The translations under genes and the position numbers were made by a program. Positions 25,612-56,681 of a DNA stretch of 64,000 bases are shown in pieces. The DNA is from Neolewinella agarilytica (lineage in GTDB: Bacteria; Bacteroidota; Bacteroidia; Chitinophagales; Saprospiraceae), in the NCBI RefSeq assembly GCF_900110645.1, contig NZ_FOFB01000026.1, positions 1-64,000 of the forward strand, given 5' to 3'. The notes beneath the pieces were generated by a model that did no database searches, was not told the origin of the DNA, and worked only from the letters and a program-made list of their open reading frames with translations. Numbering within the stretch: the stretch's first letter is position 1; each line of letters begins with the position of its first letter.

Positions 25612-25612
25612 C
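25596..25612 (+). repeat. Left attachment site (attL core)
   Basis: AGCCCCTCACTGCCCAC, 17 bases across the tRNA-Val 3' end, identical to 56665-56681. The integrase gene begins 170 bases inside. Confidence 0.85.
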
Positions 25613-28492: not shown

Positions 28493-29746
28493 CTATCTGT
28501 TTTTGATCCAATAGAGCCCGGCGAATAGCATCACTCCGGGAATCAGTATTGAGTTGTTGTTTGTTGTGCCAACCCCGAAAAGCGTCTGCTCATTGCGGGC
28601 GTGTGCTTGTACTTCGCTAGACTTTGCACGAAGTCCCTGATAAGCTAAACGGGCATTTCTCAATGCACGTTCCAAGGGTGCTGTAATGTCTGCTACCTGC
28701 TTGGGAGTTGCTCCCTGAGCCGCTAGTCGACTTACTTTAGCCTTCAGCTCCTTATCGATGTCGAAAACGGTTTTTTTCGCCTCTTCGAGCTGAGCGTTGT
28801 ACTGGCGTTCAACGGGGGAAAGCTGAACTGCAGATTGTATGTTTAAACGCTCCTCCAGCTGGCCGAAGGTGGTCCGTCTGTTAATGATCGATGCCAGGCG
28901 CTGCGCAAATTTCGTTTCGCTGTTAACCTGGCCAGATCCGCTACCGTAACCACTTCGGGTAACGAGCCATTCATATAACTCATCTTCGTGTGAATTAGTG
29001 AGCGCCGGCACTTTGCGCCGAGCGTTGCCAATCCATCGACCTACGTTATTGATGATCGTTTTACTGTCTGCCTGACCGTTTGACATTGCTTCCAATGCTC
29101 TCCAGGTCTTTCCGGTCGGAGAAAGAAAACTGAAGGCCAGGATGGTGTTTGCATTCCGGCCTTCCAGTCGTTTTGCGTTCGCTTGCATTGCACCTGCGTC
29201 CGCGCCTGATTCTCGTTGTCTTCTGTAGAAGGTCGCGCGTTCTAGGTCAGTTTCTTTTGTACTCAGGGTATTACTCTCCAGCGCTATCTTTTTCGCTGCA
29301 GCCAGAGAACCAGAAAACAGTTTGGCCGGAATAGAACAAAAGCCACGACTGCCTATTTTTTCACCCTCAGCGCAAAGCTGGGTAAATGCTTCAAAGCGGC
29401 TATGACCGGAAAGCACGAAGAGCCCACCAGCTGGGTTTTTCCAGACGGTAATTGCGTCCATATTCGCCCACCTAAAAGAACCTGACTTCACAGCCTCCAT
29501 AATGTTCTGAACACTGCGCAGACTGTACGGCGCAGCGCGGTTCTGAAACCATTCATGAGCGACGCGAATGTCCTTCAATGGTATCAGGTCGATCCCCGAG
29601 CTCCTGCCCTTTCCGGCCGGACCAAGTTTTACACCATCTTTGCTTTTCAAGCCCTGATGCCAATTACAGGCTCCGCGACGCTTGTGCGTCGAGTAAGTCC
29701 CATCTTTACAGGGATAGATAACACGGGGCTTTTTACGTAAGATCAT
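28493..29746 (-). CDS. DUF3761-ParB domain protein with C-terminal membrane anchor
   Basis: 417 residues. Residues about 10-35 (YPCKDGTYSTHKRRGACNWH) resemble the Cys-His DUF3761 domain. Residues 50-160 are a ParB/Sulfiredoxin-fold domain (IDLIPLKDIRVAHEWFQNR...LFVLSGHSRFEAF, with the GHSR/H motif). The middle is helical with a coiled coil (VERQYNAQLEEAKKTVFDIDKELKA). The last 18 residues (SILIPGVMLFAGLYWIKN) form one membrane segment. ParB domains in phage polyvalent proteins act as nucleases or CTPases on incoming DNA; membrane anchoring is unusual. Its start overlaps the stop of the muramidase gene by 4 bases. One copy of the interspersed motif lies inside, read as ADAGAMQ. Confidence 0.75.
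   Translation of the reverse strand: MILRKKPRVIYPCKDGTYSTHKRRGACNWHQGLKSKDGVKLGPAGKGRSSGIDLIPLKDIRVAHEWFQNRAAPYSLRSVQNIMEAVKSGSFRWANMDAITVWKNPAGGLFVLSGHSRFEAFTQLCAEGEKIGSRGFCSIPAKLFSGSLAAAKKIALESNTLSTKETDLERATFYRRQRESGADAGAMQANAKRLEGRNANTILAFSFLSPTGKTWRALEAMSNGQADSKTIINNVGRWIGNARRKVPALTNSHEDELYEWLVTRSGYGSGSGQVNSETKFAQRLASIINRRTTFGQLEERLNIQSAVQLSPVERQYNAQLEEAKKTVFDIDKELKAKVSRLAAQGATPKQVADITAPLERALRNARLAYQGLRAKSSEVQAHARNEQTLFGVGTTNNNSILIPGVMLFAGLYWIKNR
29188..29206 (+). repeat. Interspersed 20-base motif, copy 8 (inside a gene)
   Basis: Exact consensus TTGCACCTGCGTCCGCGCC on the plus strand, opposite to the direction of the ParB-domain gene, which reads it as GADAGAMQ. Confidence 0.75.
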
Positions 29747-30534
29747 GACAAGAGTATGTAAGTCAGTGCGGCAATCGTGACGGTGGCCAGGACGTTTCCT
29801 CCTGACGTAGTGGGCATTCCTTCAACGTAAACGAAGCTATCAATTCGGCGCAGCCAACCACGTAGGAAAACGTTCTGGGAAGAGTCGTTGGCTACAATAT
29901 GATGATAGTATTGGCGGCGCCGATTTTTATACGCATCGTGTACTGCCCGGGGTGGCGCTGAAATCAGTGCTGCATGGGTATTGGGGCCATATCGGTTATC
30001 CGGAGTAACGCCAAGAACTTCCTGCATCAGGCGAACGCCCTGGCCATGATTAATTATCCCGTCCAAGAAGATATTCGCCACTTGCTGGTCTGGAAGCTGA
30101 TCGCCGGAGATGCGATCCCAATACAGCCGCTTAAAAATGGATATCGCTGTACTTCTGGGCATGGTGCGCATATCACTTTCAGATGGTGGCCGCCCGAGGT
30201 GTATTTCGTAGACTTGTGCATTGATGCCCCAATTGGTTCCTACCAGTTGCCTCAGGGAATTATAGTTTCCTCGATCCTGTGGTAGTTTCTGATAGCCCGC
30301 TTCATGATCGGCTACGATGTTATAGGCAATTTCAAAATTAGCCATTGGAATCGGGGTTGTCTCTTCCTCTCCTGGCATGGAATGGGGAACAGGAGGAGGG
30401 GTGGCAGGAATGGTGTCACGAATAATTTCAGGAACCGGTACAGGGACAGCAGGAGCGACTTTCTCCCTTATCAGAAAGTAATAGGCGAGCCCTACGACGA
30501 TGGCCAGTGCGACAACAATTAAGAAGGTATTCAT
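29743..30534 (-). CDS. GH108-type muramidase with membrane anchors
   Basis: 263 residues. An N-terminal membrane segment (FLIVVALAIVVGLAYYFLI) and a Pro-rich linker precede a GH108 lysozyme domain: IVADHEAGYQ with the catalytic Glu near residue 78, TNWGINAQVYE and RLYWDRISGDQLP. A PG_binding_3-like end follows (VTPDNRYGPNTHAAL). A second hydrophobic segment closes the protein. The family cleaves peptidoglycan for phage lysis or entry. No holin or spanin pair is evident next to it; the anchors suggest it is carried in a membrane, perhaps that of a virion. Confidence 0.85.
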   Translation of the reverse strand: MNTFLIVVALAIVVGLAYYFLIREKVAPAVPVPVPEIIRDTIPATPPPVPHSMPGEEETTPIPMANFEIAYNIVADHEAGYQKLPQDRGNYNSLRQLVGTNWGINAQVYEIHLGRPPSESDMRTMPRSTAISIFKRLYWDRISGDQLPDQQVANIFLDGIINHGQGVRLMQEVLGVTPDNRYGPNTHAALISAPPRAVHDAYKNRRRQYYHHIVANDSSQNVFLRGWLRRIDSFVYVEGMPTTSGGNVLATVTIAALTYILLS

Positions 30535-30539: not shown

Positions 30540-31922
30540 CTATTTGTGGGAAAGAGAAGCGCGGCAGAAGGCCATCATTGATGCTCGTGCTTTTTTCAGT
30601 AGTGCCTTGTTTGGGTATACAGGGTGACCATACTGTGAACTGGCAAGGAACCGATTTCTCTTTCCTTGCTTTTTTAGCTCTTGGTTAATCATTGCCTCGA
30701 AAGCACGCGCCCAAATTTCATTATTGCGAATCCAGTATTCAGGTGCATCCTTGATCCTCTCTCTGTAAGCATTCATGCTCCCATCTGGATTAAGCATAAT
30801 CTTTGCCAGAGCGGTTTCCATTAGTCCGCGTGGCGTTTTCCGGCCACGCTCCGGTAGGTCAGTGCTGGTGGATCGCCACGCACGTAGATCACGTTGTCGA
30901 GGCCAAAGGTGGAAGTCTATTGCGTGACCATATTCATGGGCCAGGGTACCAGCTCCCTTAGTCCGAGTTAGGTTAATCAGGATGTAGCGGGAATTATAGG
31001 TAGCAGCGGCTCCACCACCTTTCCCTCTTGCGCCGTAGGCGATGGCCAGGGTTCCATTAAGACCAATTCTCTTTTGCGGTGTACGTAGAATTTGAGCCAG
31101 ATCCGTCAGACTTTCATCGATGGCCACCAGGGCTTGCTGTCGTTCGTCCTGTGGCACCCAATTACCAAACTCAATACTGTGAAGTCCGAACCTCTCTACT
31201 ATCGCCGGTGCATTGGCCGTGTACACCGTGTAGCGTTTTTTGCGTCCAGAATAGTCTTTCTCAGTAAGCCTCTTTTTCTCCAGCCAGTAGGAGTCTACCC
31301 GACTACCTGGTTTAATTGGCGTAGTATCGGTCGCCTTTCGAGCAGAGCCAATTGGCAACGCCCTCACCTCTCCGAGTGAAGGCAAGAGTTGGCGATCTTC
31401 AGCGGGAAGACTGTAGTACTTTGTCACGCCCATTGTTGCGATCGCTCCGTAGCCTAGTTGCCCAACTAAGGAGTTAGCATCAAAAGTCTTTTTCGCCGCG
31501 TAGGCAGTCCCTAATAGCAAAAGCCAGGGCGGAAGGCGAAACAGTCCCAGAAGACTATTCTCGCCTTCTCCTGAAGCTCCTGGCAGACTTCCACCTCCAC
31601 AAGTAAAATCTACAATTGGCGGAAGATATTGAAGCTGGTTTAGGTGCCCAATGATTTGCGCCCTGGTGACACCTGCCCCAGAGAGCGTTCTCACCATCTT
31701 GTAGCACTTTTCCCCGTCAGGTTTTCTTCCCGTCAACGCCATAAAGACCAAAGAAGGGTAAATAGTAACTCCTACCGACTCCGGTGGCACTGAAGAAAAA
31801 GGGCTCCCTTTTACCTCCTCAAAAATGCTATCAACTGCCGGATGACGGTCGTAGACAAAACTTTGCAACATTGCGCTGAAAGCAACATTGCCATCATTGA
31901 ACCCAAGGAGGAGAAATTTCAT
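30540..31922 (-). CDS. LPD1-like zincin metallopeptidase domain protein
   Basis: 460 residues. The middle has a membrane-like segment (PPWLLLLGTAYAAKK, about 131-145). The C-terminal half reads GLNGTLAIAYGARGKGGG...YILINLTRTKGAGTLAHEYGHAIDF with the HExxH zinc motif at about 329-333. This arrangement matches the LPD1 domain (large polyvalent protein-associated domain 1) known from phage and conjugative polyvalent proteins. A processing or counter-defence peptidase is the likely role. It lies between the muramidase gene (5-base gap) and a small gene (28-base gap). Confidence 0.75.
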   Translation of the reverse strand: MKFLLLGFNDGNVAFSAMLQSFVYDRHPAVDSIFEEVKGSPFSSVPPESVGVTIYPSLVFMALTGRKPDGEKCYKMVRTLSGAGVTRAQIIGHLNQLQYLPPIVDFTCGGGSLPGASGEGENSLLGLFRLPPWLLLLGTAYAAKKTFDANSLVGQLGYGAIATMGVTKYYSLPAEDRQLLPSLGEVRALPIGSARKATDTTPIKPGSRVDSYWLEKKRLTEKDYSGRKKRYTVYTANAPAIVERFGLHSIEFGNWVPQDERQQALVAIDESLTDLAQILRTPQKRIGLNGTLAIAYGARGKGGGAAATYNSRYILINLTRTKGAGTLAHEYGHAIDFHLWPRQRDLRAWRSTSTDLPERGRKTPRGLMETALAKIMLNPDGSMNAYRERIKDAPEYWIRNNEIWARAFEAMINQELKKQGKRNRFLASSQYGHPVYPNKALLKKARASMMAFCRASLSHK

Positions 31923-32336: not shown

Positions 32337-32945
32337 TTACTTAAGTTGAGGTTCAGAAATCTGGTCATCACGGACAGCTATGCCACCGACACCAGTAGTA
32401 TTGTTGAATTGATCTTTGAGGGGATATTTCCAGCTGTGCCAGGCGATTATTTTGTCGCCCATTCGGGAATACTCGATGTTATAGATGACCCGGTCTTCTG
32501 TTAGAACTTTAAGGTCATTTTCCCGGTAAGTCCGAGCTAAATCCTTATCCGGCCAGATCTCCAGGTCTGTCCGGAATAAGATGGAATCCGGATTAATGCC
32601 GTTCGGGATGGCCAGGCTCAAATCAAAGGCCCGATTTTTATAGTTGTAGTGGCCCGTGCTAAACTTTGCCCACTCCGGTAAGGGGCTGGATCTTCGTGCA
32701 GAACTCAAAAACGCAAAGCCTTTCTGAAGTGCTTTTAGCTCTTTCGATTGTGTACTGATGGTTGCCTGATACGCTGCCTCTCTGACTTCTGCTCGTTCAA
32801 TCTGATAATTGTAGTCCAGCCGGTTCTGGTCGCGCAGCTCCGTATAGCCCCAAACCAGTACCACCAGTACTGCACCAATACCGCCTTTAGCGACATTGGC
32901 CAATATCTTTTTCCAGTAATCGGAGAGGATTATTTGCGGGGTCAT
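32337..32945 (-). CDS. Late-operon single-pass membrane protein
   Basis: 202 residues. One N-terminal membrane segment (GGIGAVLVVLVWGYTELR, about 20-37) is followed by a coiled-coil stalk (IERAEVREAAYQATISTQSKELKAL) and a beta-rich head. Its start overlaps the stop of the spike candidate (TAATG). It is a plausible virion membrane protein or spike anchor; no family known to me. Confidence 0.7.
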   Translation of the reverse strand: MTPQIILSDYWKKILANVAKGGIGAVLVVLVWGYTELRDQNRLDYNYQIERAEVREAAYQATISTQSKELKALQKGFAFLSSARRSSPLPEWAKFSTGHYNYKNRAFDLSLAIPNGINPDSILFRTDLEIWPDKDLARTYRENDLKVLTEDRVIYNIEYSRMGDKIIAWHSWKYPLKDQFNNTTGVGGIAVRDDQISEPQLK

Positions 32946-35299
32946 TACTTCAGGATTTTTACGGTGAATATTCCACCGGCGGGGTCAGCAATAGACGCCG
33001 AAGAGTTGGTTACTCGTACAGTGACAGTATTCGCAGATGATACCCAGGCGAAGTAGCTTAAATCAGGAGACACGGCAGAGTTCGGAACGCCAAGTGCGAC
33101 GGCATCACCGAGGGCTGCACCCGCTACAGTGATAGTGAGATCTTCGTCTGACATGGAGGCAATGCCTGGGTAGTCTAGGGTGGCGGTGGCGGTTAGATTT
33201 CGAGATGCAATTAGAGCTTCGGTCTGTGACAAGGTTGTCAGAGAATTAGAGGACAAAGCAGGTAGAGCGTTCGTAGCTTCACGACTACCAAAATTTCCAT
33301 TAAAATCAAATGAAACATGGCTACCTTCTGCTTGCGGGACGACGTTCCCTTCTCTTAGAAAATATAGATTACCTTCAGTTGAATTAAGTTCTTTTCGCGT
33401 CCTGACTTCTCTCCAATAAGACTCTGTCCCCTGACTTCCAAAATTAGTCACAAAAGCAAAGCGTCCTGGCCGAAAGAAGTAAGGATTATTGTTTTTGTGC
33501 GTAAGAGCTAAAGCCCCATCCACATAGACAGACATAGAGTCCAGTCCTATTTTTCTCCATTCGATTTCATGCTCTGTGTCTGTTGACAAAACGTTGCTTG
33601 CAGTCGTATAAAGTAAGTTTCCATTATTGATGTTTCGGAACAATCTTAGATCATTACCCCAAGCCAAAAGCATCACTCCTACTGATGACGGATGATTATC
33701 TAGACCCATAACAACTCCTCCACGGCTGCTGGTATTGATCCTGTCGTAAGTATAATTAATGGTCACGGAACTGTCTGGGTGAAAATAGCCAGCGTCAGTC
33801 CATTCGGAGATATAAACCGGATTACTGTTTTCGAGATACACAAAGTCTCTCTTCGTACCTGGCAAGACTTGGAGATACTTGTTTCCGTTACGCTCTGTAA
33901 TTACTGGTGCAGCATCATACACCTCCCAGCTTACAAGGGTATCTCCCAACGATGTCTCTTCAATCGGGACAGAAAAATTTTCAATAGTATCAACTACACC
34001 TGAGATAGTTGTCCCCTGTTTCGGTAATGTTTTCGCAGCTGTAGTAAGCTGATCATAGGCAGCATGGAAGACTACATCGTGTCCTAGTGTGTTCGGGTGT
34101 ACTGGATCGCCCAACAAGGCGTTACCTCCATTCGTAGACATTGCAGACTTCGGGTCAAACATCCTGACGCCATACTCTGAAACCATCGCTACCATTGAAT
34201 CACGAAACTCCTGTTGTATTTCGAGGGTAGCAGCTGTATCGGTAAAACCTGTTGAGATTGTTACCTCATAAGCGGCAGGAATATCATACCAGTAATCAAG
34301 TGCCACAACTATATTTTCAGGAGGATAGCCCCTATCAAGAATAATTGAATCAAGAGATTCGCGGTAGTCATTTATGAATGTACTAACGCTGTAATTACCT
34401 CCAATATCCCAACGGAAATCATTTGTCACGTATGCAAGAAAAAGAGGATTGAATTGAGAGTCAAAGTCAGGCACTACACCCGCTGCAATACGGTCAATAA
34501 AGTTATCTGGGTGAGGTAGGCCAGTAACAGTGTTAATTGTGTTTTGCACAGTAGACCCACCAACAGCGCCATTTGATTCAGACGCATTAAACGCATCTGC
34601 TAATTTCCTAGACCATCTATTTTCCTCGCGGGGTGTTGCTACCTGTCCAAAGGTTATGCTGTTTCCATAATACCGGAAAACGCCACCTTTCAAGTCGAAG
34701 GGGTAGGTTTTACCTGTTGGCGGCTCATAAATAGCGAACAATGTGTTTTCATCAATAACACGGAAAGCAGGAATTACAATTCTGTCGGGAACGGTGTCAG
34801 TTAGGTATCGATTTACATAATACATCTTACCTACTGCGAAATTGTGTCCAGGTGCCTCTACAATACCTGTACTAATTACTTGGAAGCGATCTTGATCAAT
34901 CAGTTGTACAATTCCTGAATGTCTACCTGTATAATGCGCATCACTGTAGGTGAAATAGTTATTGACAGCTCCTACGGCATCTCCCGAAACGAACCCATGC
35001 AGAGGTTGATAGTACGTGCGTGTGCGTATGTATGCCTGCACTGTATCTCTTGCCACTGATTGTGCGTAGGCCTGGTCAGTCAGGCTATTGGCTGTAAGTT
35101 GCGCCTCAGAAACTCCTCCAGCCAGCAACGTATCACGCCCCACGACAACCCCATCCCGCCAATACTGCAAAATAGAGTCCTGAACTAATCGCGTACTATC
35201 CACCATCCCAACGGTCCCAGGCGTAAAACCCTGGCCCGCAGACTGCCCAAAACCAGCCACCGAAACCAATACCAGCAAAAGGATTAAAATTTTCTTCAT
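32945..35299 (-). CDS. Secreted spike candidate with SGNH hydrolase and LamG-like domains
   Basis: 784 residues. It has a Sec signal peptide (MKKILILLLVLVSVAGFGQS), then a fibre-like region (about 25-200). An SGNH/GDSL hydrolase domain follows with the nucleophile in YYGNSITFG (Ser near 214), block III TNDFRWD and the Asp/His pair in DPVHPNTLGH (398 and 401). Residues about 450-640 form a LamG/concanavalin-like sandwich. The C-terminal 120 residues are Ser/Thr/Ala-rich with a beta end. SGNH domains on phage spikes deacylate surface glycans. A cleavable signal peptide on such a protein is unusual for a tailed phage. It overlaps both neighbours by 1-4 bases. Confidence 0.8.
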   Translation of the reverse strand: MKKILILLLVLVSVAGFGQSAGQGFTPGTVGMVDSTRLVQDSILQYWRDGVVVGRDTLLAGGVSEAQLTANSLTDQAYAQSVARDTVQAYIRTRTYYQPLHGFVSGDAVGAVNNYFTYSDAHYTGRHSGIVQLIDQDRFQVISTGIVEAPGHNFAVGKMYYVNRYLTDTVPDRIVIPAFRVIDENTLFAIYEPPTGKTYPFDLKGGVFRYYGNSITFGQVATPREENRWSRKLADAFNASESNGAVGGSTVQNTINTVTGLPHPDNFIDRIAAGVVPDFDSQFNPLFLAYVTNDFRWDIGGNYSVSTFINDYRESLDSIILDRGYPPENIVVALDYWYDIPAAYEVTISTGFTDTAATLEIQQEFRDSMVAMVSEYGVRMFDPKSAMSTNGGNALLGDPVHPNTLGHDVVFHAAYDQLTTAAKTLPKQGTTISGVVDTIENFSVPIEETSLGDTLVSWEVYDAAPVITERNGNKYLQVLPGTKRDFVYLENSNPVYISEWTDAGYFHPDSSVTINYTYDRINTSSRGGVVMGLDNHPSSVGVMLLAWGNDLRLFRNINNGNLLYTTASNVLSTDTEHEIEWRKIGLDSMSVYVDGALALTHKNNNPYFFRPGRFAFVTNFGSQGTESYWREVRTRKELNSTEGNLYFLREGNVVPQAEGSHVSFDFNGNFGSREATNALPALSSNSLTTLSQTEALIASRNLTATATLDYPGIASMSDEDLTITVAGAALGDAVALGVPNSAVSPDLSYFAWVSSANTVTVRVTNSSASIADPAGGIFTVKILK

Positions 35300-36683: not shown

Positions 36684-37388
36684 TTAGTTTTCGACGATCA
36701 CCGTCAGGATGGTTCCGGTTGCATCCCAGGACACCGCCGGAGCCGTTCGGTATTGTTGAGTAGAATGATTGTAATTCGCCTTGAACGAAGTGCAGCTCCC
36801 AGGGATTAATATTGACGCAGCGGCATTGATGGTCACGACTGCATTAGAGGTGCCATCATTACATATTTCATAGCTGAAAGCTCCTGCGGCAAAAGTCCCC
36901 GTGCCCGTAGAATTGGTTCTGCTAATGGTACTCGTTATTGAAGTCGTACAAGGCCCCGTGTAAACCGTTCCGGCGACTGTGTAGGCGGTGGATAGGTCAA
37001 GCCCGAAATCGGCCGTAGCGGTCGCCGTAGAGGTATTGTCCGTAAAGACAGCTACCCGGTAAAAAGGCGTTCCTGAATCACAGAGTGAGAGAACCGAAAC
37101 CGTATAATCAGGGCCACCGCCACCACTGCCACCATCACAAGCGCCAGCCGTTGGGGTGCCGGTCAGCGTATAAGCGGCACCAGCAGCGTCTACGTAGCCC
37201 AGGGAAGTCGGGGTTGCTACACCGACGACATACTGCAGAACCTGAAAGGCAGTAGTCCCATCATCACAAACAGGAACAAGTTCGATGTCTACGATGGGAC
37301 CACCGACCTCCCCTACCTGTGCAGAAAGGTTGAAAGAGAGTGCGGCCAGTAGACAGACCGCAAAAAGGAGTTTTGCAAAAAACTTCAT
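36684..37388 (-). CDS. Secreted repeat protein, virion candidate
   Basis: 234 residues with a Sec signal peptide (KFFAKLLFAVCLLAALSFNLSAQ). Two tandem repeats of about 50 residues follow (VPVCDDGTTAFQV...AGAC and LSLCDSGTPFYRV...YTGPC). This CD-G-F-x-V...PYTVxGxV-C pattern recalls repeats I know from phage tail and capsid-decoration proteins. The C-terminal part is another beta domain. Its first codon overlaps the stop of the previous gene (ATGA), and it lies 17 bases ahead of the next. Confidence 0.7.
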   Translation of the reverse strand: MKFFAKLLFAVCLLAALSFNLSAQVGEVGGPIVDIELVPVCDDGTTAFQVLQYVVGVATPTSLGYVDAAGAAYTLTGTPTAGACDGGSGGGGPDYTVSVLSLCDSGTPFYRVAVFTDNTSTATATADFGLDLSTAYTVAGTVYTGPCTTSITSTISRTNSTGTGTFAAGAFSYEICNDGTSNAVVTINAAASILIPGSCTSFKANYNHSTQQYRTAPAVSWDATGTILTVIVEN

Positions 37389-37756
37389 ATCGTGTTTGGA
37401 TTGAAGGTGGAAGAGGATGGATAAGCGACGTCAAGCCAGAAAGTCTTTCCGTCCGGGTTATTGATGATGACTTCAGGGACGAAGTCTTGTTTCAGGTTTA
37501 CACGGTCTGTTTGTGCCTCCTTTGCGAAGGAGCCACCGTAAGCGATTGCCTCACCGTTGACGGTGATCTGGCCGCCCGTAGGATCGGCGTGTCTCAGGTA
37601 TACGCTGTACGCACCAGCGGGTAGTGTTAGGCTTCCGTTGCGGTCGCCGCGAAACTGCTTTTGCACTCCGGCCGTAACCGGAGCGACATTCACAGCGATA
37701 TTATCCAGGGCGACGTTTATCATAGCGGCCGCACCTTCTTTTCTCATTTCAGGCAT
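37385..37756 (-). CDS. Small beta-rich late-operon protein
   Basis: 123 residues, predicted all-beta (MINVALDNIAVNVAPVTAG, GSLTLPAGAYSVYLRHADP, EVIINNPDGKTFWLDVAYP) without signal or membrane segment. Such short beta proteins behind capsid genes often are minor capsid or cement proteins, but no homology is recognised. Three bases separate it from the gene before it and four overlap the gene after it. Confidence 0.65.
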   Translation of the reverse strand: MPEMRKEGAAAMINVALDNIAVNVAPVTAGVQKQFRGDRNGSLTLPAGAYSVYLRHADPTGGQITVNGEAIAYGGSFAKEAQTDRVNLKQDFVPEVIINNPDGKTFWLDVAYPSSSTFNPNTI

Positions 37757-37759: not shown

Positions 37760-38149
37760 TTAGTGTTTGCGCCGCATAACGCGGATATCGAGATAATTAC
37801 CGGGCAGGGTAAAGGGTGGATCAGCATCCGCTTCAGCTGGTAATGGAGTCTTTGTAGGCGTTTCGGTGAGAAAGCGAATTTGATATGCGTGATCGATCCC
37901 TGGGCCCGCCGTGTCGCCTTCAATGAAGGCCTCACCCGGAAGAAGTATTTGCTGATCGTCAATCAATACCGGAGCTTGTCCACGGTTGATAAAGCGAACG
38001 TGCACCATACCGTCATGCCGAAAGCTTCGGTCATCCTGGTATTTCACTTCCCGGACGATCTCCAGCTTTGCGCCGGTGAGTCGCTTCAGCAGTAAAACCA
38101 TACCGCGAAGATTTCCAAGAACATCATGGGTCGGTTTGATCACGTTCAT
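37760..38149 (-). CDS. Small late-operon protein, unknown
   Basis: 129 residues with a helical start (NLRGMVLLLKRLTGAKLEIV) and a beta-rich remainder (HVRFINRGQAPVLIDDQQILLPGEAF). It is translationally coupled to the gene before it by an ATGA overlap. No family recognised. Confidence 0.65.
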   Translation of the reverse strand: MNVIKPTHDVLGNLRGMVLLLKRLTGAKLEIVREVKYQDDRSFRHDGMVHVRFINRGQAPVLIDDQQILLPGEAFIEGDTAGPGIDHAYQIRFLTETPTKTPLPAEADADPPFTLPGNYLDIRVMRRKH

Positions 38150-38946
38150 TTCACCTGATTTATGAGCATGGAGAGATAGGTCTTCGCCTGGCCGGGGTCG
38201 GACTGCGCGAAGAGCACAACTGCCCGAAGCGCGTCATTCGGGTGAATGTCAGGGATGAGCTGGCCGAGAGCAAACAGGTCGTTGTAAGCCTGATCCATGC
38301 TCAGGGAACGAGAAGCGGCCGCGCTGCCTGCTGGCGGAGATGCTGGTACTTCGTTAATCGGCGGTGCCGGGGTTTCCCCCGCGCCCATCGTCCCGAGCTG
38401 AGGAGTAGGCTTATTGACTAATCCTTTCAGAATGTCAATGCCACCAGCTAAAAGCTGCTGTTGAATGCCGGGCTCCATGAGCCCTTCAATCTCCGCTTCT
38501 TTCTGGTTAACCTGTTGCGTTAGTTCCATGATATCTTTCATATCACGAATCCGGCCCTCGAACATTTCCCGCTGAAGGTTCAGCATCGCCTGAGTTTGTG
38601 CGTCAATGCCAGCGGTGGAAGTTCCTGAGCTACCAATACCCGCCACTGCACCTGCGGTTGCGCCCCATTGCACGTAGTAGGTCGGGCTATTACTGGTGTT
38701 GTCCGAAACGTTGCGTTTCAACGTCACCTTCCCTACCCCACCGGGAGACTGCTCGACGAACATCTGAAATTGCATCCAGCTGTATTCGAGCAGCTCCTCT
38801 TCGGAGATAACGCCGTCCGCATCGGGGCGAAACTTGGTCATGAGCTCACGCGACCGCCGGGCATTGTGAATCGTCCAGTAAGGCGATTCCTCAATGAAGA
38901 AGCGGTGCATGAATTGCTCAACGGTAAGGGTGGAGAATGCTGCCAT
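38146..38946 (-). CDS. Late-operon protein with coiled coil, scaffold-like
   Basis: 266 residues. The N-terminal 60 residues are helical with an EF-hand-like loop (DADGVISEEELL). A glycine-rich linker leads to a coiled coil (MFEGRIRDMKDIMELTQQVNQKEAEIEGLM) and a Pro/Ala-rich stretch before a helical end. The order resembles scaffolding or assembly proteins that sit next to capsid genes, but this is inference. The start coincides with the stop of the beta protein before it (TAATG). A motif copy is inside, read as GATAGAV. Confidence 0.65.
   Translation of the reverse strand: MAAFSTLTVEQFMHRFFIEESPYWTIHNARRSRELMTKFRPDADGVISEEELLEYSWMQFQMFVEQSPGGVGKVTLKRNVSDNTSNSPTYYVQWGATAGAVAGIGSSGTSTAGIDAQTQAMLNLQREMFEGRIRDMKDIMELTQQVNQKEAEIEGLMEPGIQQQLLAGGIDILKGLVNKPTPQLGTMGAGETPAPPINEVPASPPAGSAAASRSLSMDQAYNDLFALGQLIPDIHPNDALRAVVLFAQSDPGQAKTYLSMLINQVK
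38645..38666 (+). repeat. Interspersed 20-base motif, copy 10 (inside a gene)
   Basis: CTGCACCTGCGGTTGCGCCC on the plus strand, opposite to the gene, which reads it as GATAGAV. Confidence 0.65.
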
Positions 38947-39380
38947 TACTGACGGACGTATTCAATTTGAATTTCGAGAACGGTGTTGTTTTGGATACTC
39001 GCGCCATTCTGTACGACCATCGCACTATCTGACATCGTGATCTTTCCAGGGAGGCTGAGCTCAAAAGGACAGCCAGCTTCATTAGCCGCGAGGATCTGGC
39101 TCAGGTAGAGGTGGGTAACCACCTCATCAGAACCGTTTCGGAGCGTGATGTAAGCCGTGTCAAAAATTGCTTTGGCTGCAGTAGTGCTACCGTCACGCAA
39201 TTGAATAGCGGGCGGCGTCACGTAGAGGCCAACGGCATGATGACCTTCCACCGTAGAGCGCTCCTCCAGCCGGTAATCTTTCACGTTCGCCTTCAGGGGA
39301 ACGATGATGTTTTCCCGCCAGACGGCCGGGCCGTTAGCACCTTCCCTGAAGGCACCACGGGGGATGTTTTCGTAAGCCAT
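38946..39380 (-). CDS. Beta-rich protein, second capsid candidate
   Basis: 144 residues, almost entirely predicted beta strands (WRENIIVPLKANVKDYRL, AVGLYVTPPAIQLRDG, AKAIFDTAYITLRNG, NTVLEIQIEYVRQ). No signal or membrane segment. Its size and strand pattern suit a single jelly roll. It sits directly after the major-capsid candidate, beyond an intervening terminator. Two adjacent single-jelly-roll genes are the capsid arrangement in sphaerolipovirus-type viruses; homology here is not shown. Confidence 0.6.
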   Translation of the reverse strand: MAYENIPRGAFREGANGPAVWRENIIVPLKANVKDYRLEERSTVEGHHAVGLYVTPPAIQLRDGSTTAAKAIFDTAYITLRNGSDEVVTHLYLSQILAANEAGCPFELSLPGKITMSDSAMVVQNGASIQNNTVLEIQIEYVRQ

Positions 39381-39394
39381 TGCTTCGGATTAGA

Positions 39395-39432
39395 AAAAGG
39401 TCCGGACCAACCGGAGCCAGCCCGGACCTTTT
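39395..39432 (-). terminator. Terminator directly after the capsid candidate
   Basis: The minus strand folds AAAAGGTCCGG with CCGGACCTTTT (11-bp arms, 16-base loop, run of T). It lies inside an otherwise continuous operon, 29 bases past the capsid candidate's stop. Partial read-through would give that gene far more transcript than those downstream, as is common for major capsid genes. Confidence 0.8.
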
Positions 39433-39460
39433 CAGCGATTAAATTGGTTTGCGGCCTTGC

Positions 39461-40138
39461 CTACTTCGCAAAGAGGAAGTTGTTGGCACCTTCCAGGATG
39501 GCCCCGTCAAGGATCACATACAGGAAGTTCTTACGGTCAGCAGTACCGGCAATGAGGCTGCGGTCCTGACCATCTACGCGGAAAGTGAGGTTGCTCTTAT
39601 CCGCACCGGCAAAGCCGATGGAAGCCCCCAGGGGAACGATCTCACAACCGTTACGAACGTTCTTGGTGGTGCCGGAAGACTGTGTCTCCGGAACGCGGCA
39701 GAAAGGCAGCGTGGCGTGGTCCTCAATGCGCTTATTCGTACCGCTGGTGAGCGTGAACTTGGACATGAAGACGAGATTCACCTGCTGCGCTTCAGTCAGC
39801 TCTCCGGCATTAGCTGCGGGGCCGTCAAAAATGGCAGCGTCAGCATGACTTACCGGAAGAGCAGCGGACAAAACAGGAACGCCATTGACCATCGGAGCTC
39901 CCAGAACGCCAACGCTCATTCCGACAGCCAGGAAGCCGTCCCGATCGCTCAGACCGATAGAAGGGAAATACTTCTGGTCTCGTTCGTTGATCGAAACCAG
40001 GTATTCGTTTTTATTGGGGTCCAGCTCAACGATGAGGTGAAGCTGGTGAGGACGGGCTACGTCCTTGCTCATTCCCATGGAGACGGCCATTTCCTGTGCC
40101 ATCTTAGTGGCAATACCACGATTATTATTGGGGTACAT
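39461..40138 (-). CDS. Major capsid protein candidate
   Basis: 225 residues with no signal or membrane segment and a mostly beta prediction (HQLHLIVELDPNKNEYLVSIN, FLAVGMSVGVLGAPM, VNLVFMSKFTLTSG, KSNLTFRVDGQD, KNFLYVILDGAIL). It is followed at once by a strong terminator, preceded by small basic and membrane-active proteins, and next to a 144-residue beta protein. Position, spacing and terminator argue for the most abundant virion protein; I recognise no known capsid family in the sequence. A HK97-fold seems unlikely at this length and without a protease or portal nearby. Confidence 0.5.
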   Translation of the reverse strand: MYPNNNRGIATKMAQEMAVSMGMSKDVARPHQLHLIVELDPNKNEYLVSINERDQKYFPSIGLSDRDGFLAVGMSVGVLGAPMVNGVPVLSAALPVSHADAAIFDGPAANAGELTEAQQVNLVFMSKFTLTSGTNKRIEDHATLPFCRVPETQSSGTTKNVRNGCEIVPLGASIGFAGADKSNLTFRVDGQDRSLIAGTADRKNFLYVILDGAILEGANNFLFAK

Positions 40139-40212: not shown

Positions 40213-40671
40213 CTAAAGCGTTGCCATTTCCAAGTTCTCTACGCCAAGCATGGCGGGGCTGTCATAATTACTACCACTGATGCTCAGGGGGATTTCCGTC
40301 AGGCTGGTGCCGAGGCCACCAAGACGTTGGTAGATATCACCAGCGGAGCCAATCGCCACGAATTCCGGTGCGAACTTCTGGCCAAGCTCAATGGCTCCCG
40401 TGGCAGCCATACCAAGACCTGCCATCTTCAGGCGGCGGTCTTTTACCGTTGTTGCCAGGTAGGCACCTCCGGCCGCTTTCAGGACGGGAATTACCTTACC
40501 AAGCATATCAGCTTGCCCTTCCGGGATGTAAGAGTTAATTAATTTGTTGGCCACTACACTAGCGAGAGCGCCAGCGGCGACGGCCAGGCCGTCTTCCATG
40601 GTGACCTTAGTAGAGCGGGAGGACGATTTACGACGTGCCATACCTGATACTTTGGATTTGCAACCACACAT
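40213..40671 (-). CDS. Small basic/amphipathic late-operon protein
   Basis: 152 residues from the ATG at 40671 (MCGCKSKVSGMARRKSSSR); a start at 40641 (MARRKSSSRSTKV) is also possible. A basic N-terminus precedes Ala/Gly-rich amphipathic helices (DGLAVAAGALASVVANKLIN, VLKAAGGAYLATTV, AGLGMAATGAIELG) that may associate with a membrane. No family recognised. The combination of a basic tail and membrane-seeking helices suits a protein linking genome and membrane in a virion. Confidence 0.6.
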   Translation of the reverse strand: MCGCKSKVSGMARRKSSSRSTKVTMEDGLAVAAGALASVVANKLINSYIPEGQADMLGKVIPVLKAAGGAYLATTVKDRRLKMAGLGMAATGAIELGQKFAPEFVAIGSAGDIYQRLGGLGTSLTEIPLSISGSNYDSPAMLGVENLEMATL

Positions 40672-40734
40672 AATTAAGGGGGGTTGTTGAGGTTTAAGAA
40701 TCACCAGGACGCAAAGCGCGGCCGGTGGGTTGGA

Positions 40735-40977
40735 TTACTTTTTACGACGTTTGGTAAGCTTGCGCTTTTTCTTCGTTGTGCCGATACCAGCACTACAGCC
40801 CCGATTGATAACCTTGTTGGCTGAAGCGGTTGCCTCTGTTCGTGTCTTGTTGCCCTTTTTTACGGCGTCATCTATGTAGGCTTTCTTTGCCTTGTTAAGA
40901 CTCGCCTTAGTAGTGCGCCCAGCGCAGTGACTGGCTTTGGCTTTTTGCAAGCGCTGGTATTTTGTGGTCTTTGCCAT
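40735..40977 (-). CDS. Very basic small protein, probable nucleic-acid binder
   Basis: 80 residues, about a third Lys/Arg, ending KKKRKLTKRRKK, with two Cys. No membrane segment. Such proteins condense DNA in virions or bind RNA. It lies between the transglutaminase-like gene and the amphipathic protein with gaps of 28 and 63 bases. Confidence 0.65.
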   Translation of the reverse strand: MAKTTKYQRLQKAKASHCAGRTTKASLNKAKKAYIDDAVKKGNKTRTEATASANKVINRGCSAGIGTTKKKRKLTKRRKK

Positions 40978-41005: not shown

Positions 41006-42502
41006 TTAAGCCAAGGCTTTAAGCAGCAGGAGTCCACCACCACCCAAAAGCAATGGCGAAAGGCTCCCCCCACCCTGCCCGGTGGCGTTGGCCTGTCGTT
41101 GTAGACGGGCCTCTTCCTCGAAGAGTGTTGGATCTGACATTGTAGATTGATCGACGGTACCAGCATCAGCGGGAGATTTTTTGAAAATGCCCGCTATCTT
41201 CTCCACGATCTGAACTACCACCGTAATGGCGGAAACAATAGCCGTGATGACGGCTCCAACTTGGGGCGCTCCACCTTCAATAGCGATCTGCTGGGGTGTT
41301 TTACCGGTTTGCTCCAGGATGCCGTTCAGGGCAAGTCCTTTAAGCTGCTCGGGATCGAATTTACCGAGCTTCTGGATAAAGTTGAAAGTCTTGTCTTGCG
41401 CCTTGATTCGGTTTTTGATAGCCGGACTTTTGACCTTATTCCGGCCCTTCAGCAGACTAAAAATGAAGAATGGCCCCATTTTCTTGCCAATGCCATTAAA
41501 GACCCAATTCACAAACTTTTTGAAGACGCTGGAAATCGCCTCTCCCACCTTCTTAAACCAGTCTTTCACCTTACCAAAAAGTCCGCTTACACCTGCTGGT
41601 GTTGGGATGGCAACGCTAAAGTCGGGGAAAGCTGGCCGGCGCTTCTTCGTGCTGTCCTTCAGGATGCTTAACACTGTTTTCCGGAGCGTTAGGTTTTTCA
41701 CCGAACCGATACCGGAGATATCACCGCGACGCATCGCGACGGCAGCGGCCCGGAATTCAGCCTTATTTCCCTTTTCTGGCGTTACCCTTTCCAGGATATC
41801 AAAGCGATCCGCCCAGAGCCATTGGTCCAGCTCTCCAGCCGTCATTTTCGTGACGTCGGTATTCGGGTTGATAGAGGGAAGCTCACGGCCTATTTTTTCA
41901 ATATCCGCAAGCGTAGTTTTGAGTTGTCCGATGATGGCCTCTTCTGAAGCATTCATATTGATGTTGCCCAGGGTCATAGTAGAGCCCAGCTGGTAAAGAC
42001 CTGCTTTCACTTTGATGTCTTTTTTCTTGGTGTAGCGCTTCTCCGTTCCGAAGCGGCCACCGTGTTGAACTTTATAGACGACGTCTACCGGTATCTCCTG
42101 ACCATTCAGGATAGCGACAGGGTAAACGTGACGAAACTCTCTCGTCCCGTAGGCGGCATATCGAATCAAGTGATCCACGCCAATGTTTTGCAGCACTGAG
42201 CTGATGAAAGCCGTGTAGCTTTTGCAGTCCCCTACCCTCTTATTGTTGAGGTAGGCCGGTGTTTGCACCCACTGGCTGCCTGCTGGATCTTCTTTGTAGG
42301 TGAAATGCCGCTCCACCCAATTGAACAGCCGTTGCAGACCGCGACGAGTGGGCTCAAACTGCCGCGAAAAGGTTTTCGTTTCGTGGGCGTAGCCCTCCAC
42401 CACGTCTTGCACCACCTGCACAATGTCTTTCGTGCGGTAGTCTTCTTTGCGAAGCGTAGGCCCCTTGGCCGGAGGTGGGATCAATGTGGTGGCTCTACTC
42501 AT
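41006..42502 (-). CDS. Transglutaminase-like cysteine peptidase domain membrane protein
   Basis: 498 residues. Residues 50-150 form a transglutaminase-like domain with the C/H/D triad visible: GDCKSYTAF (Cys 93), FRHVYPVAI (His 125) and IPVDVVYK (Asp 140). The middle holds amphipathic helices (FGKVKDWFKKVGEAISSVFKKFVNWVFNGIGKKMG) and a hydrophobic span (VGAVITAIVSAITVVVQIVEKIAG). The end is a hydrophobic anchor (LSPLLLGGGGLLLLKALA). It may process virion or host proteins, or be an entry enzyme. It overlaps the gene before it by ATGA. Confidence 0.75.
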   Translation of the reverse strand: MSRATTLIPPPAKGPTLRKEDYRTKDIVQVVQDVVEGYAHETKTFSRQFEPTRRGLQRLFNWVERHFTYKEDPAGSQWVQTPAYLNNKRVGDCKSYTAFISSVLQNIGVDHLIRYAAYGTREFRHVYPVAILNGQEIPVDVVYKVQHGGRFGTEKRYTKKKDIKVKAGLYQLGSTMTLGNINMNASEEAIIGQLKTTLADIEKIGRELPSINPNTDVTKMTAGELDQWLWADRFDILERVTPEKGNKAEFRAAAVAMRRGDISGIGSVKNLTLRKTVLSILKDSTKKRRPAFPDFSVAIPTPAGVSGLFGKVKDWFKKVGEAISSVFKKFVNWVFNGIGKKMGPFFIFSLLKGRNKVKSPAIKNRIKAQDKTFNFIQKLGKFDPEQLKGLALNGILEQTGKTPQQIAIEGGAPQVGAVITAIVSAITVVVQIVEKIAGIFKKSPADAGTVDQSTMSDPTLFEEEARLQRQANATGQGGGSLSPLLLGGGGLLLLKALA

Positions 42503-42981
42503 GAAAAGCTGAAGAAGTTCATGGTGAGCCGGACGGGCAACTCCCGCCCATTGGACAGAAAGAGCGATCCGGAAATATCAATCGGTGCCAGCGCTGCCCC
42601 TCTGCCACCTTCCAGTAATCTCTGTAAGTGAATCAGAAAAGAACCCGCCGGAACCCGCAAACGAAGAGGCACCTCAACCGTTCGGGCATTGGGCAACAAC
42701 ACATTTTGGTTGGCCCTGATATTTCCCAGGTAACCGCCTTGCTGCGAGAAATTGAGACTAACCGCCGTAAGTCGGATATCCGGTCCCAGGGTTTGCTTCA
42801 GAAAAAGCCGAATATCAATAGTTGCCAATACCCGACCAGCTTCAATACGCATAGCAATATCCTGCCGACGAATACCGGCAAGATCATACGTAAAACGGTC
42901 TAAGATTGCTCCGGAGACCCGGCTGCCTACCAACTGGTAGAGCAGGGCCAGGCCGCCAGCAACCTTGAGGAGTTGGCTCAT
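42499..42981 (-). CDS. Membrane-anchored LEA14-like beta protein
   Basis: 160 residues. A short hydrophobic start (LKVAGGLALLYQLVGSRVSGAIL) is followed by a beta sandwich reminiscent of LEA14/WHy domains (VLATIDIRLFLKQ, IRLTAVSLNFSQQGGYLG, VEVPLRLRVPAGSF, LPVRLTMNFF). LEA14-like domains occur in membrane-associated proteins of many kinds. It is coupled to the transglutaminase-like gene by ATGA. A 110-base spacer without gene precedes it. Confidence 0.65.
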   Translation of the reverse strand: MSQLLKVAGGLALLYQLVGSRVSGAILDRFTYDLAGIRRQDIAMRIEAGRVLATIDIRLFLKQTLGPDIRLTAVSLNFSQQGGYLGNIRANQNVLLPNARTVEVPLRLRVPAGSFLIHLQRLLEGGRGAALAPIDISGSLFLSNGRELPVRLTMNFFSFS

Positions 42982-46607: not shown

Positions 46608-47900
46608 TTAGGAGGCGACCGCGTTGATGGTCGCCTGGGTGGATAATTTGTCTTTGAAAAGTTGGAAGAGCGCCGGACCTCCTTTTTTCTGGAGGCGCTG
46701 ACGGATAACGCGGAGCGTTTCATCTACGTCGCCGGTCTTGCTGTCGTTGGCCCGCCAGTAGATTTTCAGGCAACGCCCAATCTCCTGGTTGATCGCAGCT
46801 TTCTTCAGCTGGTGTTGTTGGGTCTTGTGCCAAGACTTGGAGCGGCGGAATCCGTTGGGGTTGCGAACATCAAACCAGACGGAAGGAATCGGCACGAAGG
46901 CCTTTTTGCCCGCCAGGAACCGCCGTTCGAGCCAGCCGCCCACCAGATCGATGCGGTTGACGAACTCCAGCGCCGCCGCTTTCCAGGTGTTGGGATTGCC
47001 GTAGACGAAGAACTCCGCCAGGGCAATGCGCCCGCGCTCTTCTTCGTCAGGGGTGAGGTAGCCGGGTTGAAACTGATCGAGCTCGCTCATGGCGTGATCC
47101 CACACGGTATCGAGCAGACGGTCCAGCTGCTTGCGCTGCGGCGCGGTGAGCTCACTGGTGAGTTCCTCCATCGTGTCCGGACGGGTAGCCGCGGGAACTT
47201 TTTTTCGCGGAACTTTTTTTGAGGGTAAAGTGTCCGGCGGGTTAGTGGCAGGGTTGTCGCTGCTGGGGTGGTAACCCGTTCCGGTATCCGGTTCGGTAGC
47301 TTGTTCGGTACCCGGCTGCTGCTGGTCGGCGTCAGCTGGTGCGAACGCATTAGCGTTCGTATCGCTGGAAGCCGTGCCGCTTAATTCATTCAATTGATTG
47401 GTACCCTGTCTGGTTACCGAAGGTGATAGGGTATCCGGCAAATTTTGCCGCATAGCGGCCGCTTGGGGCCGCAGGGCGGGGAGGGGGTTACGGAAGATCG
47501 AAACAACGTTTCCCGCGTCCCTGGCCGTCGTTTCCTGCAAGTACAGAAGGTCCGTGTTGAGCTGAATTTCAAAACTGGCGTTACTACCGTGGAAGATCTT
47601 TTTGAGGAAGCCAGCGGCGCTTAAACGCTTAATGAGGTTGCGCACCGTCCGTTCACACCGGCGTAGCATTTTGGCCAGTTGCACGTTGTTGGTCCTGATC
47701 GAGCGAATAAGATCACCCTGCGGACCAGGACGCTTACAAGATTGATAATGGCCCGTTTCCATTTTCAGGAGGCGTACCAGCACTTTCATGGTTTCCAGGT
47801 GCGCCCCTTTCAGGCGTTGTCCGCAGCTGAGAGACTTGTTGTGCTGGTCAAATAGTTCCTCCATGAGGATATAAGACTTCGCTGGGTGAATTACTAACAT
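46608..47900 (-). CDS. Winged-helix DNA-binding protein, possible replication initiator
   Basis: 430 residues from the ATG at 47900; a start at 47864 (MEELFDQHNK) is possible. Residues about 60-115 (NNVQLAKMLRRCERTVRNLIKRLSAAGFLKKI) form a winged helix of the kind found in plasmid and phage replication proteins. A long disordered Pro/Thr/Asp linker leads to a C-terminal helical domain (LDRLLDTVWDHAMSELDQF...FVYGNPNTWKAAALEFVNRI). No P-loop, HUH or primase motif is visible, so initiator function is only a guess from position and fold. Confidence 0.65.
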   Translation of the reverse strand: MLVIHPAKSYILMEELFDQHNKSLSCGQRLKGAHLETMKVLVRLLKMETGHYQSCKRPGPQGDLIRSIRTNNVQLAKMLRRCERTVRNLIKRLSAAGFLKKIFHGSNASFEIQLNTDLLYLQETTARDAGNVVSIFRNPLPALRPQAAAMRQNLPDTLSPSVTRQGTNQLNELSGTASSDTNANAFAPADADQQQPGTEQATEPDTGTGYHPSSDNPATNPPDTLPSKKVPRKKVPAATRPDTMEELTSELTAPQRKQLDRLLDTVWDHAMSELDQFQPGYLTPDEEERGRIALAEFFVYGNPNTWKAAALEFVNRIDLVGGWLERRFLAGKKAFVPIPSVWFDVRNPNGFRRSKSWHKTQQHQLKKAAINQEIGRCLKIYWRANDSKTGDVDETLRVIRQRLQKKGGPALFQLFKDKLSTQATINAVAS

Positions 47901-48080
47901 TTTACGCTTGTTGCAATGAGTATGGAAAAAAGGTGACCGGCCCGCGAGCCGGCCACCTGGTTCAACCCGGCCCGTAGGCCGCGCTGCTGAGGTATCTTGA
48001 AGAATCCGAAGAGAGAGAATGGGGCCAGAAGACGACAACCAGCCCCCTCAGTAATCTCTCATGAAAACAAATTCTACTCG

Positions 48081-48757: not shown

Positions 48758-49090
48758 TCAGAGTAGGTACACGTCGCCAGCTTTGACGCGCACGGCCAGG
48801 GTTTCGACTTCCTGGCGGGAGTAAGTAAAAGGCTTGCACTGTCCGAAAATGGTCAGGTGGCCATGGTCCCGGCACCACTGCAAAAACTTGTGATGGCCCG
48901 ACTTATTCGGGCGCTTACCGAGAGCAATCGCTACTTCATCGCCGGTCATCCAATCGGATTTCTCTTTCCGGTTCGCCAGTAGCTCGTTGGTACGGCGTTG
49001 CTCTTCCAGCAGCTGAGCGTTTACTTCCATCAGCTGCGAGAAGGCTTCTGCCAGCGTGGGCGGTAGGGGAGCGTTTAGAACAAGTCCCAT
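48758..49090 (-). CDS. Early-block protein with DNA-binding-like C-terminus
   Basis: 110 residues from the ATG at 49090, which overlaps the stop of the gene before it (TAATG). A helical start (LAEAFSQLMEVNAQLLEEQRR, coiled coil) is followed by MTGDEVAIALGKRPNKSGHHKFLQWCRDHGHLTIFGQCKPFTYSRQEVETL. This has the layout of the helix-turn-helix DNA-binding proteins of Bacteroidota elements. Probable regulator or excision factor. Confidence 0.65.
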   Translation of the reverse strand: MGLVLNAPLPPTLAEAFSQLMEVNAQLLEEQRRTNELLANRKEKSDWMTGDEVAIALGKRPNKSGHHKFLQWCRDHGHLTIFGQCKPFTYSRQEVETLAVRVKAGDVYLL

Positions 49091-56664: not shown

Positions 56665-56681
56665 AGCCCCTCACTGCCCAC
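56665..56681 (+). repeat. Right attachment site (attR core)
   Basis: Identical 17 bases to 25596-25612, AGCCCCTCACTGCCCAC, without any tRNA upstream part. This is the original 3' end of tRNA-Val displaced by the element. Confidence 0.85.

Follow-up and report, generated by a model that had tools for sequence, protein, structure and literature searches.

The window analysed here, 64,000 nucleotides of Neolewinella agarilytica DNA (contig NZ_FOFB01000026.1, positions 1 to 64,000), is the start of contig C39 in a 6.2 Mb genome and carries on its minus strand an open reading frame (ORF) for a 225-residue protein, a hairpin and an ORF for a 144-residue protein, all three within a temperate integrative element of about 31 kb. 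We consider it probable that these genes make up the capsid section of a late operon belonging to a dormant virus of this marine bacterium, one that is temperate, tailless, probably furnished with an internal membrane and related to the phage SSIP-1, that the 225-residue protein is the major capsid protein, and that the hairpin raises the amount of capsid message. The computed borders of the element, its synteny, the homology of its products to SSIP-1 virion proteins and the position of the hairpin argue for this reading. The three features at its centre are as follows.

39461..40138, minus strand: 225-residue protein, candidate major capsid protein (MCP1A family), by profile links and synteny
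39395..39434, minus strand: terminator-like hairpin with a T run between the 225- and 144-residue genes, by folding
38946..39380, minus strand: 144-residue protein, putative second protein of the capsid module and positional counterpart of SSIP-1 gp47, by family profile

The hairpin behind the capsid candidate

Both ORFs exist as an earlier note on this DNA had drawn them, and the hairpin that it had placed between them as a terminator is real. Counting A-U and G-U pairs, the stem has 17-18 pairs, of which the 11 bp of the note are the core; it closes on a loop of 4 nt, is accompanied by a T run, and starts about 27 nt past the stop codon of the 225-residue ORF in a gap of 80 nt. The G+C-rich stem (18 bp) followed by a T tract has the form of an intrinsic terminator. 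When a 61-nt stretch is folded, its energy is -29.1 kcal/mol with a z of -4.6, and 0 of 200 shuffles are equally stable; the z of this hairpin varies with the length of the stretch folded, being -2.5 for 90 nt (4 of 200 shuffles equally stable) and -2.6 and -2.3 for the whole gap. No hairpin precedes the 225-residue gene, where an 86-nt stretch covering the upstream gap gave a z of +1.7. The same note had described an otherwise continuous operon, and this also holds, the late operon running from about 42.98 to 27.8 kb with other gaps of at most 30 nt, save 74 nt before the 225-residue gene.

The related loci described below place this hairpin in a wider frame. The gap after the 225-type gene folds at z<=-2 in 15 of 18 loci (median -3.6), as against 1 of 19 for the gap just before that gene and 0 of 17 for the gap before that, and farther gaps reach this value in 1 of 7 and 2 of 10 cases upstream and in 0 of 7 downstream. 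This count of 18 leaves out L004, a near copy of L005 (z -4.1 in an earlier test), as well as L064 and L067, whose gaps measure 9 and 0 nt. The gp46-gp47 gap of SSIP-1 is among the fifteen (-37.4 kcal/mol, z -3.9), and its gp45-gp46 gap has no hairpin (z +0.2). A second set of 10 loci gave z<=-2 in 7 for the 90 nt downstream and in 2 for the 90 nt upstream; at L088, L089 and L090 the next gene begins within about 22 nt, which makes the 90 nt tested there mostly coding, and for real gaps only the count is 6 of 7, L076 being the exception. Hairpin sequences are unrelated between distant loci. The conserved property is thus the position of the hairpin and not its sequence, and the hairpin goes beyond chance in that most related loci have one there too, with no sequence shared among them.

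As for the effect of the hairpin, the proposal of the earlier note that it boosts the upstream gene fares well in one part, since the conserved 3' position fits it; a clear T tract (at least 5 T in 8) is found in 9 of the 18 hairpins, leaving termination and 3'-end stabilisation both possible. Partial termination fits half of the cases best, and protection of 3' ends would explain all of them. In the sequence of events that we propose, RNA polymerase would read the transglutaminase gene, a basic-protein gene, a membrane-protein gene and the capsid gene in this order, the hairpin would end part of the transcripts or protect their 3' ends, and the capsid message would thereby exceed that of the genes behind the hairpin. 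The share of C-ending NNY codons in the 225-type gene is above the locus median in 17 of 20 loci, with two ties and one below.

Relation to SSIP-1

According to passages of the published accounts, SSIP-1 belongs to the single-beta-barrel group, has no tail, contains a membrane and has capsid proteins of two types (PMC4958249, PMC6356626, PMC5332951), and a passage of PMC6260650 attaches a question mark to its fold. The SSIP-1 record labels its gp34, gp43 and gp44 as structural proteins, and all three have homologues in the element, encoded together with other relevant genes as follows.

41006..42502, minus strand: transglutaminase-fold protein (498 residues) with a hydrophobic C terminus, homologue of SSIP-1 structural protein gp34, by blastp and profile
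40735..40977, minus strand: 80-residue basic protein, ORF with a family profile
40213..40704, minus strand: 163-residue small membrane protein, homologue of SSIP-1 structural protein gp44, by profile search
29743..30534, minus strand: GH108 endolysin, homologue of SSIP-1 ORF31
28493..29746, minus strand: ParB-like protein (417 residues), homologue of SSIP-1 gp43 residues 1805-2167

When compared with 50,697 phage records, the 498-residue protein matched SSIP-1 alone, and the 417-residue protein matched SSIP-1 and, weakly (E 3e-5), an unannotated 4.7-kb faecal record. The ParB-like protein aligns with gp43 at 27% over 387 columns (E about 1e-26), the transglutaminase protein with gp34 at a blastp E of 9e-8 (1.9e-38 for the transglutaminase profile, the SSIP-1 row being included in the alignment), and the endolysin with ORF31 at an E of 8e-5. 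These three stood out in pairwise shuffling against the SSIP-1 proteins, with z values of 27.8 for the ParB-like protein, 10.1 for the transglutaminase protein and 9.2 for the endolysin. For gp44 the link comes from profiles: the membrane-protein family, reduced to 18 rows without SSIP-1 and Persicobacter, finds gp44 by hmmsearch at an E of 1.5e-4 as best of 57 (next 0.029), and 29 non-SSIP-1 rows find it at 5.8e-6, again best of 57 (next 0.014), with an hhalign P of 4.8e-4 that is best of 56. The Persicobacter membrane-protein genes, searched with a profile lacking their own rows, scored 2.8e-10 and 4.4e-8. The first 11 residues of the 163-residue protein may result from a wrong start, its G015 homologues starting at MCGC.

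The 225-residue family is tied to SSIP-1 more loosely. Its profile of 18 sequences (alignment A5) has gp46 as the best of 110 proteins (P 0.0034, 134 columns); against a joint gp45 and gp46 profile the value is 6.6e-4, or 5.5e-4 with two more members, and against MCP1B, the other family of 225-type proteins met below, it is 7.5e-4 over 120 columns. SSIP-1 gp45 and gp46 are themselves adjacent paralogues of about 210 residues (26% over 175 columns, E 1e-12), and from this adjacent paralogy we infer that they are the capsid proteins of SSIP-1. Homology of the 225 family to gp45/gp46 is favoured by position, and the sequence signals are weak when taken one by one. The gp44 match, the profile links and the hairpin together equate the order membrane protein, 225-type gene, hairpin, next gene with the SSIP-1 order gp44, gp45/gp46, hairpin, gp47. 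The capsid reading of the earlier note is therefore well supported by the place that the 225-residue gene shares with the SSIP-1 capsid candidates, by the gp44 homologue upstream and by the weak gp46 match. On this footing the 225-residue protein would form the shell, the 163-residue protein would be a small membrane protein under it, and the 144-residue protein may be a second, less abundant protein of the shell module, be it a penton, a spike base or a minor capsid protein. C-terminal membrane anchors, found in 2 of 18 element genes, 10 of 57 SSIP-1 genes and 1 of 21 host ORFs, are not decisive as a hallmark.

A separate observation concerns the gp43 type: L069:29141-32134 encodes a 997-residue protein that has ArdC-type and zincin domains and is a further match of the 417-residue ParB-like protein, which suggests an anti-restriction role for gp43-type proteins.

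A lineage of related loci

The first searches gave few relatives. That with the 225-residue protein returned 2 of 198 genomes, namely this one and G015, and searches at the order, class and phylum levels (alignments A1, A2 and A4) returned only this genus and two weak matches (E about 0.003 and 0.009). No match was found by tblastn of the 225-residue protein and two distant family members against the 50,697 phage records, nor in viral-contig scans with the 225-, 144-, 498- and 417-residue proteins and alignment A9; viral-contig scans with gp45 and alignment A4 had as their sole match a record as long as SSIP-1, and a genome-contig scan had Lewinella sp. W8 as its only match. The lineage came into view because of a family search with the transglutaminase protein and a class search with the small membrane protein.

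Of the 298 genomes covered by the family search, 18 have the transglutaminase protein, and these include this one and G015. Nineteen neighbourhoods were taken from the other genomes with it; three (L063, L065, L066) end soon after the transglutaminase gene, and in the remaining 16 a 225-type gene follows, belonging to the family of the window in 15 and to MCP1B in one (L068, where no membrane-protein gene was recognised). In the class search the small membrane protein is present in 8 of 198 genomes, this one included, and in all 8 neighbourhoods from the other seven a 225-type gene of 212-246 residues follows the membrane-protein gene, one belonging to the window family and seven to MCP1B; the transglutaminase gene is there in 7 of the 8, the eighth lying on a 3-kb contig. 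Across both searches the 225-type proteins span 212-302 residues and are encoded just downstream of the transglutaminase or membrane-protein gene (16/19 in Saprospiraceae, 8/8 in the wider class). One more locus (G158) comes from another family of the same order.

Two Persicobacter plasmids, L069 (48.8 kb) and L070 (47.6 kb), carry transglutaminase, membrane-protein and MCP1B genes. On a third, L094 (53.2 kb), an MCP1B gene is recognised at E 2.8e-34, a membrane-protein gene is doubtful (0.009), and no transglutaminase gene was found in the 14.7 kb of it that were read; its species has a second match of equal score on a 1.07 Mb replicon. These plasmids look like plasmid-form relatives of the virus. 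The related genome G015 has two or more copies of this type of element, split over contigs and almost the same in their late genes, and three integrase homologues (contigs C26, C27 and C2), one beside a tRNA-Lys and one beside a tRNA-Val. Altogether, two G015 copies, 16 Saprospiraceae loci, 8 wider-class loci, G158 and three Persicobacter loci make 30 further loci with a 225-type gene, the hosts being Lewinella, other Saprospiraceae, other Bacteroidia families and, for plasmids, Persicobacter.

Some of these loci have features of their own. L051 and L052, both capsid blocks, are separated by about 26 kb on the same contig (G1287, C44), which suggests two elements side by side, and at L067:12281-12571, in a locus that has a 225-family gene, a 96-residue frame on the opposite strand matches MCP1B (E 3.8e-15).

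The 144-residue protein

Iteration gathered 16 members of the 144-residue family, and alignment A6 (17 rows) adds L067, which fell below threshold in the iteration. Most distinctive are its long members.

L053:13858-14757: two tandem copies of the domain
L054:5793-6656: two tandem copies of the domain
L055:14064-14981: two tandem copies of the domain
L076:8193-9245: possibly tandem

In the first three, of 287-305 residues, a profile of the short members matches the C half at P 8.8e-12 and the N half at P 4.1e-10, and the halves match each other at P 2.3e-4; in the 350-residue L076 protein the C half matches (P 1.7e-6) and the N half is doubtful (P 0.006). The correspondence of the 144-residue protein to gp47 is positional: the family profile places gp47 second of 110 at P 0.04, which is not significant, and an internal repeat in gp47 is only suggestive (P 0.01).

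The earlier note had seen in the 225- and 144-residue proteins a pair of single-jelly-roll capsid proteins. That the two are mixed in one P23-77-like shell we regard as doubtful. The genes are adjacent and co-conserved, SSIP-1 is described as a two-capsid-protein virus in parts of its literature, a short motif is common to both families (P 0.02, 23 columns), and the single or tandem state of the 144-residue domain recalls the small and large P23-77 proteins, which have one and two barrels according to a passage of PMC4958249. Against this stands the arrangement of the genes, since the likely capsid pair of SSIP-1 is gp45/gp46, which lies before the hairpin, whereas the 144-residue gene follows the hairpin and occupies the gp47 position; moreover, if the hairpin reduces the output of the second gene relative to the first, unequal rather than equal amounts would be expected, and neither structure model gave a usable fold. 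Of the earlier proposal, the capsid role of the 225-residue protein is thus well supported, and the pair of single-jelly-roll capsid proteins only partly so.

That the 225-residue protein is a minor virion protein, with the true major capsid protein encoded by another gene of the block (such as those for the 144-, 266- and 234-residue proteins), is unlikely. The abundance of the 225-residue protein is without direct proof, and between the two Lewinella hosts the 144-residue protein is the more conserved one (83% as against 74-75%); the placement of the hairpin, the gp44-gp46 synteny and the gp45/gp46 profile link nevertheless favour the 225-residue protein, and a 225-type gene is present in 30 of the 30 further loci counted, where a 144-type gene was recognised beside it in 17.

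Fold and packaging genes

The structure predictions for which the earlier note had called gave models too poor to rely on, and they establish a jelly-roll fold for neither protein. The AlphaFold model of the 144-residue protein has eight strands and two helices at a mean pLDDT of 38.5, a value at which its description as all-beta stays unconfirmed, its ORF being real. Both models were built on three-sequence alignments, before the deep families had been assembled.

Pfam and PHROG scans of the structural genes found no terminase, portal, HK97 capsid or tail gene at meaningful E-values. The sole phage-structural match below 0.001 is of the tape-measure kind (8.7e-5) and falls on the C-terminal part of the transglutaminase protein; weaker matches are scaffold (0.12) for the 225-residue, tail assembly (0.093) for the 456-residue and minor head/DNA pilot (0.0038) for the 460-residue protein, and the winged-helix protein weakly matches small terminase (0.0066). 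A six-frame scan for the Walker-A pattern, limited to open frames of 70 codons or more, found no such ATPase in a real gene of the element, the pattern being seen only in three short plus-strand frames opposite genes. Several relatives carry P-loop proteins, outside the capsid block. A tailed prophage was considered and rejected.

More broadly, it is very unlikely that the element is a degenerate tailed prophage, a satellite or some other element without a virion, the hairpin being an ordinary terminator. The lack of a Walker-A motif and the cargo in the low-GC right part of the element would suit such an origin; the structural genes speak against it through the missing tailed-phage matches, apart from the tape-measure one, and so do the homologues of three SSIP-1 virion proteins, the ORFs, which are intact and conserved in two further Lewinella copies, and the plasmid-form relatives in Persicobacter.

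Points that weigh against the capsid reading

Several results count against the SSIP-1-like capsid reading that we prefer. No particle has been seen. The hairpin is missing at L055 and weak at L069 (z -1.9) and L070 (z -0.9), half of the 18 hairpins are without a clear T tract, and the codon signal is mild, the 225-type gene ranking first in 3 of 20 loci where 1.5 are expected. The 225- and 144-residue proteins are not prominent in pairwise shuffling against the SSIP-1 proteins, a single-sequence link thus being absent. Among the profile comparisons, gp44 is only fourth of 110 by hhalign with the 18-row profile (P 0.027), the 225 family gives P 0.18 against gp45 alone, MCP1B gives P 0.19 against gp45 and gp46, and the Persicobacter pair alone gives P 0.56 against the 225 family and P 0.31 against gp45 and gp46. 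With respect to fold, the AlphaFold model of the 225-residue protein has a mean pLDDT of 28.2, too poor to rely on; a Foldseek search of viral structures with the 144-residue model returned 176 matches at E<=10 and none at E<=0.001, a meaningless outcome; and nothing credible came from searches of the PDB with A5 and A6 or from Pfam and PHROG scans of the A5 members. Finally, gp40, the predicted packaging enzyme of SSIP-1 in a passage of PMC4124505, had no significant match outside SSIP-1 in the loci collected by then, leaving the predicted packaging ATPase without a counterpart here.

The element and its other genes

The repeat of the tRNA-Val end, a tyrosine integrase and a phage-type repressor identify the surroundings of the capsid block as a temperate element of about 31 kb, which may be an active provirus and would have been integrated at the tRNA-Val gene.

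25537..25612, plus strand: tRNA-Val(TAC), by ARAGORN; its last 17 nt (25596-25612) are the left attachment repeat, an exact 17-nt direct repeat
25782..26924, plus strand: tyrosine integrase beside the tRNA, with Pfam Phage_integrase, SAM_5 and Arm domains and homologues in G015
30540..31922, minus strand: LPD1 protein of the large polyvalent type, by domain match, with an HExxH-like motif seen by eye and a homologue in L056
32337..32945, minus strand: membrane protein, possible holin, with a hydrophobic stretch and a weak Pfam BhlA match below cut-off
32945..35299, minus strand: GDSL-domain protein (784 residues) with a signal-like N terminus, candidate receptor-binding or spike protein
37385..37756, minus strand: 123-residue small protein, whose profile search also matches the 234-residue protein
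38146..38946, minus strand: 266-residue protein after the 144-residue protein, with homologues in G015, L050 and L051 and doubtful ones elsewhere
42499..42981, minus strand: 160-residue protein before the transglutaminase protein, conserved in the block (22 members at E<=1e-3)
46608..48038, minus strand: winged-helix protein, candidate replication initiator, by weak matches
49090..49437, minus strand: 115-residue regulator (E 0.0075), divergent from the repressor
49665..50027, plus strand: phage-type repressor, 120 residues, by profile match
56665..56681, no strand assigned: right attachment repeat, an exact 17-nt copy of the tRNA-Val 3' end 31 kb from the left one

In the G015 stretches read the GDSL protein has no homologue, and proteins of 542 and 561 residues precede the 202-residue homologue there. 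The consecutive 234-, 456- and 784-residue proteins (32945-37388) have N termini that by eye resemble signal peptides, which is unusual for virion proteins. Upstream of the late operon, a perfect 12-bp stem at 43609-43636 (z -6.1) is terminator-like on both strands, and 43682-44539 encodes a second D12 DNA adenine methyltransferase, with matches in L057 and L060 and none in the G015 stretches read. Farther right, a 463-residue HAD-type hydrolase (51909-53300) matches PADLOC Hydrolase and Hydrolase-TM and is a candidate defence gene; 53420-55514, in the low-GC part (37-41%), holds restriction-modification-like cargo composed of an 87-residue control protein, a 200-residue protein, possibly a restriction enzyme and without a PADLOC match, and a D12-class methyltransferase.

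Meaning and comparison with known systems

SSIP-1 has so far been an unclassified single isolate, and the 30 further loci turn this orphan into a lineage; in the literature searched, no title or beginning of an abstract describes such proviruses, and in genomes and plasmid records the blocks of the relatives consist of genes without viral annotation or without any. A bolder proposal, which we put forward tentatively as one possibility, is that SSIP-1 is one tip of a lineage spread broadly through Bacteroidia, whose members would be temperate membrane viruses without tails, living integrated or in plasmid-like form. Some of them, the present one included, would do without a packaging NTPase by assembling around the DNA or borrowing a host motor, the single and tandem beta-domain of their capsid block would form a living series from single to double jelly-roll, and the hairpin, kept by position and not by sequence, would set the capsid dose. 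The members are apparently temperate, and cultured hosts, Lewinella and Persicobacter among them, might allow their induction; with families of 18 and 17 sequences the fold can be tested directly. The tandem 144-residue domain bears on the origin of double jelly-roll capsid proteins, the missing ATPase bears on how such viruses package their DNA, and the hairpin offers a clear example of an RNA element of which only the position is conserved.

With the Sphaerolipoviridae and the Thermus phage P23-77 group, which have two single-beta-barrel capsid proteins and a packaging ATPase, the element would share the plan of a tailless membrane virus with small adjacent capsid proteins; it differs in that PDB, Pfam and PHROG searches found no sequence link and that the ATPase was not found here. 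Because that ATPase is missing and the fold is not established, the element is classed with SSIP-1, as its relative, rather than within the Sphaerolipoviridae. FLiP (Finnlakeviridae) and the Odin group, both double jelly-roll, resemble it in lacking a packaging ATPase, as a passage of PMC5894146 reports for them, and FLiP does so too in its Bacteroidota host. They differ in that the capsid candidate here has about 225 residues and matches no Pfam, PHROG or PDB family, and in that the present element is larger and has no rolling-circle replication protein among its matches; a FLiP-type element was considered and rejected.

From SSIP-1, an unclassified double-stranded DNA phage, the element differs in being integrated at a tRNA gene with an integrase and a repressor, in its size (about 31 kb as against 44 kb), in having one 225-type gene in place of two paralogues, in a ParB-like match that covers only part of the 2319-residue gp43, and in the absence of a gp40-type ATPase from the Walker-A pattern scan. 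What it has in common with SSIP-1 are homologues of gp34, gp43 (in part), gp44 and the endolysin, together with the gene order of membrane protein, capsid candidate, hairpin and next gene.

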